DNA from: Lachnospiraceae bacterium
GTDB taxonomy: Bacteria; Bacillota; Clostridia; Lachnospirales; Lachnospiraceae
DNA length: 32,173 nucleotides
Assembly (NCBI GenBank): GCA_014804355.1
Contig: JAAUZY010000094.1
Coordinates: 1-32,173, forward strand
Direction of reading: 5' to 3'
Shown: positions 25,243 to 31,601 of the stretch, one piece after another
Numbering within the stretch: the first letter of the stretch is position 1
How the letters are laid out: every line of letters starts with the position of its first letter
Notes under the pieces: model-generated
What the model was told of the DNA's origin: nothing
Databases searched by the model: none
Seen by the model: only the letters and a program-made list of their open reading frames with translations
Made by a program: the position numbers and the translations under genes

Positions 25243-25371
25243 TCATATTATAACGTTCCACAATTCATCATAGTAATAGGCAGCAATCGAGTAGGGAAGA
25301 TTTTCTCCCTGCTCGCCGCGCGATCCGTGCGCCAGTTTTGTGCCATACTTCCGTCGCACGGGTCTGTGCAC
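25243..25371 (-). pseudogene. 3' remnant of a truncated gene (about 42 codons)
   Basis: The minus-strand frame ending TGA at 25243 reads HRPVRRKYGTKLAHGSRGEQ and continues with GENLPYSIAAYYYDELW, which has the composition of a genuine conserved protein end. There is no RBS or plausible start, and a stop lies just upstream next to the GTTAACCC repeats. It is most simply the C-terminus of a gene cut off by insertion or deletion at about 25375. The parent family is not recognised. Confidence 0.5.
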
Positions 25372-25380
25372 AAAAATAGA

Positions 25381-25566
25381 TTAACCCCAGTTAACCCTTA
25401 ACAACCTATAAAAGAAAAACAGCTCAATCCCAGTGTTTACAAGGAATTGAGCTACCTAAAAAATTATGCCGGCGACCGGAATCGAATAAGTCACAAGCAG
25501 AAAAAACACAATAAAACAGGAGGTTTGAGAGCGTCTTATCGCAGGGTTAACCCCAAAGTTAACCCT
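25381..25566. other. Attachment-site-like region: tRNA 3'-end-like core with flanking GTTAACCC repeats
   Basis: On the minus strand 25467-25486 reads TTCGATTCCGGTCGCCGGCA, which has the form of a tRNA T-loop plus acceptor 3' strand (compatible with tRNA-Leu starting GCCGGCG), yet no tRNA body is attached. TTAACCC-type repeats flank it: 25381-25388, 25390-25397, and an inverted pair AGGGTTAAC (25543-25551) / GTTAACCCT (25558-25566). This is the layout of a tyrosine-integrase att site (core plus arm sites). No integrase gene is in the window. Confidence 0.5.
25420..25457 (-). terminator. Intrinsic terminator downstream of the toxin-like gene
   Basis: AGCTCAAT and ATTGAGCT form an 8-bp stem; on the minus strand GTTTTTCTTTT follows. 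Confidence 0.65.
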
Positions 25567-26022: not shown

Positions 26023-26856
26023 CTAAGATAATCCAATTACCACCCATGATGGTACATCGTTTTCGAAAGCTACGTCAAAGACGAATTTTTGTCCATTTTC
26101 ATCATTCCAGCTTAATATAATCCTAGCACTAAAACCACGACTACCACCATCATGCCAGTACATACGACAATAACTATTTTCGCTAAACTGCGACTCAAAT
26201 TCAAATTTCTCCCCTTCTTCAAAAGAAGGATCCTGTATTCTCATCGCTTCAAGCAAATCCCGAATTCCCAATGCTTCTATTGCTTCGGTAAAAGTGGTTT
26301 TGCCCGGAATAATCGGACTTTGAATAAAATCTGCATCAGCTATGGTAAATCCATCATAATGTAAAATTTGTATCTCCGTACCACTCTCATCAGTTATATA
26401 ATATACAAAATTCCTTGCCCCTTCTGGTGTGTGCAGATAAAAAGCAAGCGTATCAGAGTTCGTCTTTCCCTTAGACCATCCATCATCGACACTGTTTCCT
26501 ACATCATCAAACTCTGGCAGATTAATTGCATCATACATCTCATCCATCGTCATGCCACAGTAAACGTTAAAGCCATCGATTGTGAAATCCTCGGGGGAGA
26601 AGCCCAGCTCGTAATAAGGAAGTCCCGACTCCCCGATACTGCCCTGCGCAGGTTTGCCATCAGCTGCCACATCCTCGGAAGATTCAGCCATAGTGTGCGA
26701 ATCCTCCTGACTGCTGACATATGGCACAGTACCCGCCGTAGATTTATCATTTACTATACTGCTACTGTTTGCAGGCTCTGCGGCATTGCCGCATCCTGCA
26801 ATCGCAGATACAGACACAGACACCGCAAGTATAATTGTTAAAAATTTCTTCTTCAT
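26023..26856 (-). CDS. Lipoprotein of unknown function, accessory region
   Basis: A 277-residue protein; the start MKKKFLTIILAVSVSVS is preceded by GAGGAG. The lipoprotein signal peptide ends SAIAGC. A Ser/Ala/Asp-rich linker runs to about residue 75. The mature domain begins GLPYYELGFSPEDFTIDGFNVYCGM and is acidic and aromatic. A short repeat-like unit (MTMDEMYDAINL, later FTEAIEALGI) is seen in several Firmicutes lipoproteins, but I cannot name the family. It follows the acidic protein gene by 26 nt and ends at a strong terminator, so the two form one operon. Confidence 0.75.
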   Translation of the reverse strand: MKKKFLTIILAVSVSVSAIAGCGNAAEPANSSSIVNDKSTAGTVPYVSSQEDSHTMAESSEDVAADGKPAQGSIGESGLPYYELGFSPEDFTIDGFNVYCGMTMDEMYDAINLPEFDDVGNSVDDGWSKGKTNSDTLAFYLHTPEGARNFVYYITDESGTEIQILHYDGFTIADADFIQSPIIPGKTTFTEAIEALGIRDLLEAMRIQDPSFEEGEKFEFESQFSENSYCRMYWHDGGSRGFSARIILSWNDENGQKFVFDVAFENDVPSWVVIGLS

Positions 26857-26882
26857 CGAAACAGTCTCCTCTTTCATTTTCA

Positions 26883-27458
26883 TCATATGTCGTGGCTCAC
26901 TTCATGCCCCGATGCAACAAAATAATCGAATGCATCACAGCCTATAAGCCTGTTAAGAGCCTGCTTTAGCTGGCAGAGGACTTCTTCATCATAGGGATAT
27001 TCATCATACTCCGTAAAATTCAGGCTGACATAATCATCACCTATGGAATAATCCTCATCTTCAGAGATCATGCCACCCATATAGTCCTCAATAAAGCCGC
27101 TGATGATCCCTGTCTCTTCATCCTCTTCACCCTCAAAGACATCTGCCAGCATACCCCGCTGGGCATCCGATAAGGTATACCCCGATTTACAGCGGAATAT
27201 TACGCAGTCCATAAAGGTCGGCGGTTTCACCTGTGCCGCTTCTTTTTTGACGGTATCATCAAATGCCGATTTGATCTGCCCATATTCTTCAGCAGATATT
27301 TTCTGGTTATGATAATCATCAATCCCTTGCCTGAACGCGGCTAAAGCACCGCCCAATACTTTTCCATATACAGGCAGTGGCTCGATTATCTCAGGAAGTT
27401 TTCTGGCAGTGGCTTTTCCAACGCATGCCAGAAGTTTAAAGATATCATTGCTGTTCAC
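26883..27458 (-). CDS. Acidic protein of unknown function (191 residues)
   Basis: The preferred start is GTG at 27458 because AAGGAGGAG lies 7 nt before it; the in-frame ATG at 27494 has no RBS and would begin inside the leader terminator region. The N-terminal part (LPVYGKVLGGALAAFRQGIDDYHN) is helical, followed by a charged helix, a motif MDCVIFRCKSGYTLSDAQRGML and a strongly acidic C-terminal half (EGEEDEETG, SEDEDYSIGDD, DEYPYDEE). No signal peptide. It is paired with a lipoprotein and preceded by a structured RNA leader. The acidic surface might mimic DNA or bind a basic partner, which is speculation. Confidence 0.65.
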   Translation of the reverse strand: MNSNDIFKLLACVGKATARKLPEIIEPLPVYGKVLGGALAAFRQGIDDYHNQKISAEEYGQIKSAFDDTVKKEAAQVKPPTFMDCVIFRCKSGYTLSDAQRGMLADVFEGEEDEETGIISGFIEDYMGGMISEDEDYSIGDDYVSLNFTEYDEYPYDEEVLCQLKQALNRLIGCDAFDYFVASGHEVSHDI

Positions 27459-27496
27459 ATTGCTCCTCCTTCTCCTTAGTATTCTCCGAAGCACAT

Positions 27497-27746: not shown

Positions 27747-27928
27747 GTGTGTATCGCAGACCTTGTGTCTGTATTGTGTGTGGTAGCGTGGATACCATCC
27801 TTTGCTCGGCACTGTTGGTAGCAGTGCCGAGTGGTACACCTTTACGTCCTTGAATTCTCAAAAACATTGTAGCATACGCGGCAAAACCTGACAAGCGAAA
27901 AGTAAAGCGGCATCTGCCGCTTTATTTT
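27747..27928 (+). ncRNA. Candidate small RNA, about 180 nt, ending under the recombinase gene 3' end
   Basis: The interval runs from a good promoter to a terminator. It contains a perfect 10-bp hairpin CTCGGCACTG (27805-27814) / CAGTGCCGAG (27822-27831) with a 7-nt loop and ends with the TAAAGCGGC/GCCGCTTTA hairpin plus TTTTCT. There is no ORF with an RBS. The 3' end overlaps the last codons of the recombinase gene in antisense. The hairpin could instead be a recombination or transfer-origin site. Confidence 0.4.
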
Positions 27929-27929
27929 C
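27903..27929 (+). terminator. Bidirectional terminator at the recombinase 3' end
   Basis: TAAAGCGGC (27903-27911) pairs with GCCGCTTTA (27916-27924) around ATCT. T-rich sequence follows on both strands (TTTTCT on plus; CTTTTC on minus). It includes the recombinase stop codon. Confidence 0.7.
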
Positions 27930-28536
27930 TATCTGCATACCGAACTAACATCTCCGTATTATTGGAAATTACTCTGGCTTCATAATCCCTCACTCGCCGA
28001 TAAAACGTCGAGGGCTTCAACCCCAGCTCCCGCATCGCCGCTACCCCCTGAATCTCTCCAGACTTCCATCTGGCATACACCTCTGCAAATTTTTCCCCGT
28101 CAATGGCTATCGGCTTACGCCCTAGATACTTTCCATTCTGTCTGGCGATTTCTATGCCTTCTCGCTGGCGGTCTAAGGTGTACTCACGCTCCAGCTGTGC
28201 TATTGCGCCGAATACTGTCAGCATGAATTTCCCCGATGGTGTGTTTGTGTCGATATCTTCTTTACGGGACGTGAAATCTACCCCCTTTTCATTCAGCCGA
28301 TCCACGATACCAAGCAGATCTTTTGTATTACGGGCAATACGGGAAATTGACTCAACCACCACAACATCACCCTCACGGACATACTGGAGCATTTTCTCTA
28401 ACTCCTCTCTGCCGCGCTGTGTTTTGCCCGACACCTTTTCGATAAAGACCTTTTCAACGCCCAACTCCTGCATAATAACTTCCTGTCTGGCTGTGTTCTG
28501 TTCTTCTGTGCTGACTCTGACATATCCAACCTTCAC
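27922..28536 (-). CDS. Serine recombinase (resolvase/invertase family)
   Basis: A 204-residue small serine recombinase. The catalytic domain begins VGYVRVSTEEQ with Ser9 as nucleophile and Arg7; the SRIAR motif supplies Arg66 and Arg69 (equivalents of gamma-delta resolvase Arg68 and Arg71). The E-helix segment is about residues 102-135 and the C-terminal HTH is about 150-188 (AAMRELGLKPSTFYRRV). The start is GTG with AGGAGG five nt upstream; the longer frame (to 28746) has no similarity. Members of this size resolve plasmid or transposon cointegrates or invert DNA. It is followed by a bidirectional terminator. Confidence 0.93.
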   Translation of the reverse strand: MKVGYVRVSTEEQNTARQEVIMQELGVEKVFIEKVSGKTQRGREELEKMLQYVREGDVVVVESISRIARNTKDLLGIVDRLNEKGVDFTSRKEDIDTNTPSGKFMLTVFGAIAQLEREYTLDRQREGIEIARQNGKYLGRKPIAIDGEKFAEVYARWKSGEIQGVAAMRELGLKPSTFYRRVRDYEARVISNNTEMLVRYADRK

Positions 28537-28861
28537 GGTAACCTCCTGACTCTGCGGATGCCGATCCGCAGGAATAGATCTAATGCTTGCGACAATTGAT
28601 TTAGAACGGCATCCAGACTGTGCCAATAGACCTACCCAAAATGATGATACATCCCAAAATCGGGAAAATGACTCCAGTGACACGGAAAACGGCGGCAGGA
28701 AACCATGCCGATAGGGGATACCCCAAAGAACCAGAAACGCAGACACACGTCAGCCCCAAATACACGCAAGAGCATAAAAAAGCACCCGTACTACCCCAGC
28801 GGCATAAAAGCGGCGTGTGAGGGCGGTACGGGTGCACAGGGGCAACCCGTGCAGTACACGG
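28537..28861. other. Gap between the two recombinase-type genes
   Basis: 325 bp without a supported gene. It holds the terminator at 28782-28835 and a GC-rich stretch (28830-28861). A minus-strand frame (28601-28765) could encode a 54-residue hydrophobic peptide starting at GTG but has no RBS. A serine-recombinase crossover site would be expected near here, but I could not define one. Confidence 0.4.
28782..28835 (-). terminator. Intrinsic terminator of the degenerate recombinase gene
   Basis: GCACCCGTAC (28782-28791) pairs over 10 bp with GTACGGGTGC (28826-28835); TTTTTTATG follows on the minus strand. Confidence 0.75.
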
Positions 28862-29371
28862 TCAGTTCCCCTTCTTCTTGATCCCGTTGTTCTTGAAAAC
28901 CAACATGATATCAGCCAGCGACTCAGACCGAATCCGATTGATTAACGGAATTTTTGCGGTATCAGGCAGTTTGCTGCAGTTTATCCACTTTACAAATTCA
29001 ACCTCCCGCGCCGCAAACTCCTTCAATGTCTCAACCGTAACTGCAGACAGGGGATGGATGGAAGAAAAGTTTAAATAATGCTCATTACCCGACTGGAATT
29101 CGATCCCGCGCCCTGACAGAAAAAGCATCTTGCAAAAAAGGTCGTATGCCCCGCCCGCAAACGAGGACAGGGTCGGGACGCACAGCGTATCGCCCGCCGC
29201 CATATGCTCCAGAAGCGCATTCAGTTCACTGGCACCAACGATATTTTCGTCGGCTACCCCCATCTTGCGCACGACGTGAGCCTCGGTTTGCTGGAAGATC
29301 ACACCGTATTTCCTGCTGTCGTTTTTACTACCGCTCTTCTTACTGCTGTCTTTACTGTTTCCTCTCTGCAT
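28862..29371 (-). CDS. Catalytically degenerate serine-recombinase-domain protein
   Basis: A 169-residue protein; the start MQRGNSKDSSKK has GGAGAGGAG upstream. After a basic, Ser/Lys-rich N-terminus (residues 1-20), residues 21-92 align with the neighbouring recombinase: GDTLCVPTLSSFAGGAYDLF matches GDVVVVESISRIARNTKDLL without gaps, through GIEF versus GVDF. Key residues are lost: the catalytic Ser becomes Gln28, Arg7 becomes Phe26, Arg66 becomes Ser70 and Arg69 becomes Gly73. The C-terminal part (110-169) is helical without the recombinase HTH. It cannot recombine DNA and may bind or regulate the active partner. It has its own terminator. Confidence 0.7.
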   Translation of the reverse strand: MQRGNSKDSSKKSGSKNDSRKYGVIFQQTEAHVVRKMGVADENIVGASELNALLEHMAAGDTLCVPTLSSFAGGAYDLFCKMLFLSGRGIEFQSGNEHYLNFSSIHPLSAVTVETLKEFAAREVEFVKWINCSKLPDTAKIPLINRIRSESLADIMLVFKNNGIKKKGN

Positions 29372-29837
29372 AGCTCTTTTCTCCTCTCCCGACAATATAT
29401 TTTTCACCACAAAAAATAGAAACTTGTCGTACTGCCCAGAAAGATGTCAATCCTGAATCTCTTCAGGTTATGGCAGGAAAGTGTGTATCGGAACGGGCAA
29501 GTGTGTTTTAAAACATGAAAGTCAGACTATGTTCATTCCCTATCTATGCCTTATCTGCGCACACTCAGCACCACGGGTGCATACCCCAGACACCGCCAAA
29601 TTCAATCAACGCAGATACAACAGATTTATCCAAGCACCGAGCAAAGCCGCATAAAACCGCACTTTTGGAAGCAGGTTATGGGCTGTTGTTTACTTTTGCA
29701 CCCAAAAAGTAATCCCATTTTTAATCAGCCAAAACGGGGGAATCCAAAAAGTAATCAACCTTGCGGTGTGTTTCACGCCGTCTCAATTAAACGTATCGTG
29801 GAGCATCTGCCATATCTATACAACGTCATGTTGTAAG
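29372..29837. other. Gap upstream of the degenerate recombinase gene
   Basis: 466 bp with no gene I can support. It holds the dyad CCTGAA-TCTC-TTCAGG (29452-29467, with one extra C), about 80-96 bp upstream of the degenerate recombinase start (possible operator), and two identical 13-mers CCAAAAAGTAATC (29702-29714 and 29744-29756, 42 bp apart), the first also pairing with TTACTTTT just upstream. Frames on both strands are short and lack ribosome binding sites. Confidence 0.4.
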
Positions 29838-29884
29838 GAAAAGCACCATCTTGTCACCTTATGCGTGACAAAACAGTGCTTTTC
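29838..29884 (-). terminator. Terminator of the amidoligase-cyclotransferase operon
   Basis: A nested hairpin: GAAAAGCAC (29838-29846) with GTGCTTTTC (29876-29884), and inner TTGTCAC (29851-29857) with GTGACAA (29865-29871). It lies 26 nt after the cyclotransferase-like stop. Confidence 0.75.
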
Positions 29885-29910
29885 ATATCTGGCAAATTTA
29901 TGAGAATGGC

Positions 29911-30561
29911 TCAATTCCCCGACAGAAGATAGGGCGATACCTCCAGCACCCCAGCCAGCCTCAGTACTGTGTCGGTACGTGCCCTCTGGATGCTCCGCTC
30001 GCCGCTTTCATATTTTTGGAGCGTCTTGAGGGAAACCTCCGCAGCCTCTGCAAGCTGTGCCTGTGTTAAACCTTTCACCTGTCTGTAGTGCTTCAGGGCA
30101 TTACCGTAGGGAATACCCCCATACTCCACACCGCGCCAAGCGTCATAGAGCTTTTGTTCGTCTAAGCCGAAACTGCGGTATCCTGACAGGACTGCCTCAA
30201 AATACCCCTGAGACGGCAGACGCGGTACTGCGCGGGTATTCATCACATATACCAGACCATTGATGCACTCACCATCATCCATCAGGACATCCATCTGCTC
30301 CCGCGTATAGTGGGTCGGATACCCCTCATAGCGGTCAAGTGCCCCCTCGTCCCTCCTGCTGATCTGCCAGACCGCCACGGGGACGGATTCTCCCTCACAG
30401 GGCTCAATGGTTGCAAAAGCACTCGACCCTAACGCTTTAAACGTGAGCCGATAGTCTGGGATAACCCCTGTGCCGACCGCCTCTGCATCGGGACAACGGA
30501 ATGCCATCTGTCTGATATTTAAATTACTTCCATACGAGATATAAAGTGTGCTTTGTGCCAT
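29911..30561 (-). CDS. Gamma-glutamylcyclotransferase-like (AIG2) domain fused to an XRE-type HTH
   Basis: A 216-residue two-domain protein. Residues 5-115 are a GGCT/AIG2-like domain with the YGSN substrate loop (YISYGSNLN, residues 7-15) and the catalytic Glu in DRYEGYP (Glu79); such enzymes cyclise gamma-glutamyl groups to 5-oxoproline and release the amine. Residues 152-212 are an HTH_3 domain (NALKHYRQVKGLTQAQLAEAAEVSLKTLQKYESGERS). The start is chosen for AAGGAGGAG upstream. It is the second gene of a two-gene operon, 63 nt behind the amidoligase. The fusion suggests a regulator that reads or edits a gamma-glutamyl product. Enzymatic activity is not proven. Confidence 0.88.
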   Translation of the reverse strand: MAQSTLYISYGSNLNIRQMAFRCPDAEAVGTGVIPDYRLTFKALGSSAFATIEPCEGESVPVAVWQISRRDEGALDRYEGYPTHYTREQMDVLMDDGECINGLVYVMNTRAVPRLPSQGYFEAVLSGYRSFGLDEQKLYDAWRGVEYGGIPYGNALKHYRQVKGLTQAQLAEAAEVSLKTLQKYESGERSIQRARTDTVLRLAGVLEVSPYLLSGN

Positions 30562-30624
30562 AACTGATCTCCTCCTTCTTATTATATCAATGTGTTCGTG
30601 AAAATACCCCAACAGGGGATGCGC

Positions 30625-31524
30625 TCACGCGCACCTCCCATGCCGCCATGCGGAATCTCCTGTCAGGTTCTTGGTCATATGGTGACGGCATGTCTTGAAC
30701 TCATCGCCGTTCAAACCGAGCCTGAGAAGCCAACAGCGCATACAATATTTTTCATTATCCGTCACGCTCCTGCGGCAACTGGCTTTTTTCTGCGTCAGTG
30801 CCTGATGGCTGAGTGCCAGACAGAACTGGATATAGGATTTGATCTCCCCTGCATGAGTGGTGGAATTGAAGAGACGGAACTCCACTGTGCCTTTCGTGAA
30901 TGTCGCATGAAGATTGAGTCCACGGTACCGGCTCGGATTATAATGGGCAGTTCTGTATACATCTGCGTCCCCATACCACATGTCCGCCAGTTCAGCCAGC
31001 GTCTGCGGTTTGCGCTGATTAATTACCCCCAGAAGAGCCTCATTCACCTTCTGGCAGTACTGCAACCTCTCAGGCGCGATCTGCAGTGCCCGATACAGGA
31101 TATCTTCTTTTTGTGCCATCAGGTTCACCAGATTCTTCAAGGTCTGCGGTGTGTGGCGGCTGGCATCCACGTGGACATGGATGCCGCAGGACTTGTTCAC
31201 GAATGCCCCAGCATGTCTAAGCTGTCTGACCACTTCCTGCAGATCTGCGATGTCCGCATAAGTGAGGATCGGGCTGACAATCTCAGTCGAGTAGTCGCGC
31301 CCCGCCATGCTCTTCCCGCCTGCCTCCGTCTTCTTTTGGCAGGTGATGGAAGAATCGGACATAGCCTTCCAGATACGTCCCTGACGGTCAGTCGCACGAT
31401 AGGTACTGTAGCTACCCCCTACATAAGAAGATGTAGTGCCAAAATACTTTGCAATCACCTGTGCTGCCCGCTCTCTCGTGATCCCCGTCATTTCAATCTC
31501 GATACCAAATTTTTGTGTCCTCAT
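30625..31524 (-). CDS. Amidoligase-family protein (COOH-NH2 ligase, glutamine-synthetase-like fold)
   Basis: A 299-residue protein of the amidoligase_2 type (PF12224-like). Motifs in order: KFGIEIEMT (residues 5-13, metal-binding Glu residues), SDSSI (56-60), YSTEIVSPIL (78-87), CGIHVHVDAS (113-122), RGLNLH (201-206) and TVEFRLFNST (213-222). These are the conserved acidic, His and Arg residues of ATP-dependent ligases that join carboxyl and amino groups in peptides. The start MRTQKFGIEI has AAGGAGG upstream. It is the first gene of an operon with a promoter at 31573 and a cyclotransferase-HTH partner. Substrate unknown; the His/Cys-rich C-terminus (CMRCW, CRHH) is unusual. Confidence 0.9.
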   Translation of the reverse strand: MRTQKFGIEIEMTGITRERAAQVIAKYFGTTSSYVGGSYSTYRATDRQGRIWKAMSDSSITCQKKTEAGGKSMAGRDYSTEIVSPILTYADIADLQEVVRQLRHAGAFVNKSCGIHVHVDASRHTPQTLKNLVNLMAQKEDILYRALQIAPERLQYCQKVNEALLGVINQRKPQTLAELADMWYGDADVYRTAHYNPSRYRGLNLHATFTKGTVEFRLFNSTTHAGEIKSYIQFCLALSHQALTQKKASCRRSVTDNEKYCMRCWLLRLGLNGDEFKTCRHHMTKNLTGDSAWRHGRCA

Positions 31525-31572
31525 AACCTTTTTCCTCCTTCGTCCGTACATTTGTTCTCTTTCGGTGTGTCT

Positions 31573-31601
31573 ACTATACCTCTGGCGGGGGAGTTATTCA
31601 A
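31573..31601 (-). promoter_or_regulatory. Promoter of the amidoligase operon
   Basis: Minus-strand TTGAAT (31596-31601), 17-nt spacer, TATAGT (31573-31578), about 48 nt before the amidoligase start. Confidence 0.7.

Follow-up and report, generated by a model that had tools for sequence, protein, structure and literature searches.

The window analysed here is a 32,173-nt stretch of DNA from a gut Lachnospiraceae bacterium whose contig stops at 32173, and two minus-strand genes of an integrated element lie between 29838 and 31601. The first gene (30625..31524) encodes an amidoligase of 299 aa with a glutamine-synthetase-like fold, the presumed writer of a gamma-glutamyl tag. The second (29911..30561) encodes a protein of 216 aa in which a gamma-glutamylcyclotransferase (GGCT) domain (residues ~1-146) is followed by an XRE-type helix-turn-helix (HTH) domain (residues ~153-214), the predicted eraser and presumed regulator. 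An initial annotation of 29838..31601 had recognised both genes, whose limits are corrected here to those given above. Its description of the pair as a self-contained unit does not stand, since the pair belongs to an element that extends from an attachment (att) site at 25466 to beyond the contig end.

The amidoligase starts with an ATG at 31524 preceded by AAGGAGG, and the GGCT-XRE gene with an ATG at 30561 preceded by AGGAGGAG. Both genes thus placed have a good ribosome-binding site and are separated by 63 bp, the amidoligase coming first. An intrinsic-terminator-like stem-loop of 20 pairs on the minus strand (29838..29884) has a folding energy of -29.1 kcal/mol (z -7.4), equalled in none of 200 shuffles, in agreement with the terminator first assigned to the pair; it was not on the list returned by a simple terminator scan. 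Upstream of the amidoligase lies a sigma-70-like promoter, TTGAAT-17-TATAGT (31573..31601, minus strand), with a partial palindrome across its -35 box. This promoter, also named in the initial annotation, occurs as a pattern at chance level (7 sites found versus 5.7 expected), but it and about 130 bp surrounding it could be aligned across all six elements compared.

The amidoligase matched the Pfam family Amidoligase_2 (PF12224) with an E-value of 4.5e-73 and 246.6 bits against a curated cut-off of 22. Its predicted fold resembles that of YbdK and glutamate-cysteine ligase, and all 14 positions checked were invariant in 69 of 69 aligned amidoligases; with this fold and a conserved cluster of acidic and His residues it falls among the carboxylate-amine ligases related to glutamine synthetase and glutamate-cysteine ligase. 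NCBIfam and PADLOC gave no specific family for it, and a PDB sequence search gave no amidoligase match at E-values up to 1. A second, distant amidoligase-like stretch (~30-37% identity) is present at a contig edge in the window's own genome (G000:C45, loci L002 and L039).

In the second protein, Pfam detected the GGCT domain as GGACT (PF06094, E-value 1.7e-14, residues 9-113) and the XRE domain as HTH_31 (E-value 3.1e-10, residues 153-210), the latter in accord with its predicted fold. The GGCT domain has a predicted fold resembling human GGCT, the YGSN motif and the catalytic Glu of the AIG2/GGACT family, and this residue, Glu79, is conserved in 77 of 77 fused proteins. Profiles, predicted folds and invariant residues thus bear out the initial assignment of an amidoligase and a GGCT with XRE on the second protein, and both look intact as enzymes. 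NCBIfam returned an antitoxin-like HTH model with a score below the cut-off; in PADLOC-DB 2.0.0 the amidoligase was unmatched and the GGCT-XRE protein matched generic HTH models only. No GGCT-HTH fusion was found among the matches listed in the open-licence PubMed Central (PMC) literature. The unfused GGCTs at L074, L088, L098, L121, L151, L177, L054 and L056 carry other C-terminal extensions of ~50-90 aa, some acidic and none XRE.

The pairing of the two enzymes was surveyed by scanning genome and viral collections with an alignment of five fused proteins and keeping the best 80 of 130 genome loci and the best 80 of 278 viral loci. An amidoligase was found directly upstream of the GGCT relative, on the same strand and within 3 kb, at 77 of the 80 genome loci and likewise at 75 of the 80 viral loci, four of the remaining five viral loci being close to a contig end. 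The protein distances of the two partners also co-vary (r 0.71 over 64 dereplicated pairs, with no value as high in 2000 permutations), a result that shared ancestry alone can produce. Methylase, terminase or portal genes are found near the pair in four annotated phages. In the four phages compared the amidoligase is itself preceded by a shorter, amidoligase-like protein that does not have the catalytic positions (L003 5107-5871, L004 3957-4634, L006 4560-5288, L007 4091-4807) and is perhaps a non-catalytic subunit. Relatives were found in 5 of 72,556 plasmid records, every one below 60% identity. The unfused pair is mostly a phage module.

The linkage itself has been noted in passages of PMC5513430, PMC3485107, PMC11318856, PMC11253131, PMC10945688, PMC5498523 and PMC11945000. 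Like the gut-phage module of amidoligase (PHROG 2443) and GGCT (PHROG 2520) known for example from 'Ca. Heliusvirales', the pair described here has homologues of both enzymes encoded on one strand, the amidoligase directly before the GGCT, and the Blautia phage of that group belongs to the sister clade of the island's amidoligase. The phage module differs in having phage genes around it, the degenerate short protein upstream in the four phages compared, and no XRE fusion in the forms found; none of the 46 phage records with a GGCT match spans 80% of the fused protein.

The fused gene was also found in four genomes of the window's genus (G042, G018, G021 and G032) and in the Lachnospiraceae record L050. 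All five of these other elements carry a tyrosine integrase and, on the opposite strand, a D12-type adenine methylase whose Pfam score is above the cut-off in G042 and just under it in G018; by eye its N-terminus is ribbon-helix-helix-like, and the methylases match generic methyltransferase models in PADLOC-DB 2.0.0. A degenerate and an intact serine recombinase occur together in four of the five, and by eye one protein of L050 may be a diverged degenerate serine recombinase. The gene order is identical in five elements, the window copy being cut by the contig end. The cargo varies, with lipoprotein-like genes in G042, G018, G021 and the window and, by eye, a PIN-type toxin-antitoxin pair in G032.

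Neither the methylase nor the degenerate recombinase turned up at any of 75 unfused genome loci or 80 viral loci. Phage packaging and head queries, a limited set of eight, matched 56 of the 75 and 62 of the 80 but none of the 10 element loci, which represent six elements, four of them twice. A Pfam scan of a subset of the elements' open reading frames (ORFs) gave no packaging or structural gene either, and no relaxase, type IV secretion or other conjugation gene; the suggestion of the initial annotation that the pair controls conjugation is dropped on this ground. That the block is merely a decayed prophage, as the kinship of its amidoligase with the clade of the Blautia phage (69.5% identity to that homologue) might imply, is very improbable in view of these packaging counts, of five elements sharing one gene order at several tRNA targets, and of purifying selection on the element, read from ratios most of which have a synonymous divergence (dS) above 1 behind them.

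In four relatives the element is flanked by direct repeats of a tRNA 3' end ~9.3-10.3 kb apart. The targets are tRNA-Met in G042 and G021 and tRNA-Cys in G018; G032 has the tRNA-Met repeats, with no tRNA found within the stretch fetched, and in L050 the integrase adjoins tRNA-Arg. At the outer end of the window's element the att repeat (25466..25486, minus strand) is the last ~21 nt of tRNA-Leu(UAA). In G042 the tRNA-Leu is intact and is followed by the counterpart of the window's flank, at 96.6% identity over 88 columns and 91.6% over the next 1.9 kb. Conversely, the window's genome lacks the element at the tRNA-Met site where G042 has it; 2.9 kb of other sequence with a toxin-antitoxin-like pair lies there instead. 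The element is therefore a discrete insertion, and this reciprocal comparison supports the mobile-element location proposed earlier. With a direct repeat of a tRNA 3' end and an unoccupied site in a relative, it classes as a tRNA-integrating island. Such islands in general have a tyrosine integrase beside a tRNA gene, a direct repeat of the tRNA 3' end, variable cargo and unoccupied sites in relatives, and the relatives of this island share these features. This island differs from the general kind in that adenine methylase, amidoligase and GGCT-XRE make up a constant core, and the ORFs scanned included no recognisable transfer or structural gene.

The window's contig stops before the expected place of the integrase, and one search of its own genome with the G018 integrase found none; the gene may lie in the assembly gap. 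Among 77 genomes of the genus the methylase was found in 4 and the integrase in 6, with strong matches in G042, G032 and G021, a decayed copy in G013 and more distant matches in G003 and G046. The methylase was found in none of 397 genomes of the family, which shows at most that it is rare elsewhere because the known carriers are absent from the genomes listed as searched.

Characterised fold relatives of the amidoligase have a gamma-carboxyl of glutamate as their point of action; GGCT cleaves off a terminal gamma-glutamyl group, which leaves as 5-oxoproline. Given this chemistry, the simplest reading of the pair is that the ligase forms a gamma-glutamyl amide which its partner takes off again, and tag-and-remove chemistry fits the predicted folds and invariant residues. 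GGCT requires a free alpha-amine on its glutamate, so that a terminal cap would be within its reach and the bonds of a peptidoglycan stem glutamate would not. Autorepression is suggested by the XRE domain that the eraser carries. Our preferred explanation, to which we give somewhat less than an even chance, is that a phage-type gamma-glutamylation cycle now forms the core of a small island that integrates at tRNA genes, with the eraser also repressing the operon. For the donor, the acceptor, the direction of the reaction, the autoregulation and the role of the pair we infer the following scheme. With ATP the amidoligase would activate glutamate at its gamma-carboxyl and join it, as a terminal cap, to an amine, either that of a small molecule or one on a side chain of a cell-wall precursor. 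Removal of the cap as 5-oxoproline would fall to the GGCT domain, while the XRE domain would bind the conserved promoter and repress the operon, so that writer levels would be tied to the state of the eraser. The cycle would probably serve in conflict with competing phages or in retention of the element in its host.

Several observations weigh against this scheme. The linkage is one-sided: the phage collection holds 99 records with an amidoligase match and only 46 with GGCT, a GGCT was nearby at 19 of 23 loci of the amidoligase-centred genome search (L023, among the four without, is cut by a contig end), and in FP_Taranis (L005) the amidoligase is present with no GGCT detected. No clear operator was found, a palindrome of at least 8 nt per arm occurring in one of six upstream regions and off the promoter, and the -35 box has a 6+6 palindrome in L031 and only partial ones in the other elements. 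The sister of the element in the GGCT tree is the viral contig L130, which is not its sister in the amidoligase tree. The selection ratios, finally, are rough because most dS values are as high as stated.

The operon could instead be a modifier/eraser toxin-antitoxin system in which the amidoligase caps an essential amine and GGCT-XRE uncaps it and represses the operon, thereby stabilising the island. In DarTG-type systems one enzyme modifies and its partner reverses the modification; the logic here would be similar, with a partner that reverses and may regulate, but the folds are unrelated and the chemistry would be another. The two-gene operon, the HTH domain of the second protein, a feature of many antitoxins, its antitoxin-like NCBIfam match below the cut-off, the island location and the PIN-type pair of the sibling element all speak for this view. 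The unfused phage pair, on the other hand, adjoins packaging genes, where addiction is not needed, and we consider the view unlikely.

For phage cassettes with these genes a different use, the alteration of peptidoglycan peptides to keep other phages out (superinfection exclusion), has been proposed in passages of PMC5498523, PMC11253131, PMC11318856 and PMC11945000. This overlaps with the gamma-glutamylation cycle preferred here and differs in its substrate, and the inability of GGCT to undo stem-glutamate bonds argues against it. In the portions of PMC5498523 and PMC11945000 that describe them, the peptidoglycan-modification cassettes of LUZ24-like and phiEco32-like podoviruses likewise combine GGCT with amidoligase genes, but they also carry ATP-grasp and amidotransferase-type genes, none of which was seen among the element ORFs scanned; the island has two enzymes, one of them with an HTH. 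We regard superinfection exclusion by this route as quite unlikely. Auxiliary nitrogen or glutathione-type metabolism, suggested in a passage of PMC10945688 on a Planctomycetes phage, would accord with two folds of glutathione-cycle enzymes; the suggestion is speculative in that source, a narrow mobile distribution and an HTH fusion do not call for it, and we hold it to be improbable.

The pair as such, annotated in many phages and noted in print, is not new; the XRE fusion and the element carrying it are the newer parts. No such element was found among the matches listed in the open-licence PMC literature, and that literature yielded no experiments on the amidoligase/GGCT pair and no established substrate. 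The fused eraser-regulator and its tRNA-targeting island look new, with a well supported anatomy and a predicted function. It is possible, though doubtful, that they represent a new family of minimal tRNA-targeting islands, with a core cargo of a reversible gamma-glutamylation writer and an eraser that doubles as the operon's repressor, a cyclotransferase-transcription factor coupling tag removal to gene control; the phage gene pair would here have been turned into a new kind of anti-phage or addiction device. Gut phages commonly carry the pair. On the island the system is pared down to two enzymes under a single promoter, the eraser being fused to a DNA-binding domain, so that chemistry, control and selective value can be tested together. 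If the tag is real, a reversible modification would be common to phages and islands.

The origin of the fused pair was followed in two gene trees made by a quick method. The element forms one clade in both (Shimodaira-Hasegawa-like approximate likelihood-ratio test support of 99 and 95), and in the amidoligase tree its sister is the phage clade that includes the Blautia Heliusvirales phage. Because the two trees give different sisters, the GGCT part may have been exchanged. The fusion may have arisen from an arrangement such as that in the viral contigs L132, L137 and L145, where a separate XRE gene comes after an unfused GGCT on the same strand.

The remaining genes of the window's element, all on the minus strand, are a degenerate serine-recombinase-like protein (28862..29410; Pfam Resolvase 16.3 bits, under the cut-off of 23.3), a serine recombinase (27922..28746) with its Resolvase domain at residues 73-207 and its real start probably further in, and two proteins with no Pfam match. 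These are a hypothetical protein of 203 aa (26883..27494) and a lipoprotein-like cargo protein of 287 aa (26023..26886), whose region is 92% identical at the DNA level with L030, where its lipoprotein nature was recognised by eye. Outside the element, ~95-115 bp at 25286-25399 are missing from the otherwise matching G042 flank and recur at many places in related genomes; this stretch is probably a small dispersed repeat. In G046 (L209 10350-15251) the tRNA-Met site that three elements occupy elsewhere contains a related integrase piece together with different genes, which look DUF262-like and DUF4062-like by eye; the site is a possible defence hotspot. The outer end of the G042 element occurs twice in tandem (L030 16298-16397 and 16462-16560, 90% identity over 100 bp), perhaps as the trace of an earlier insertion.
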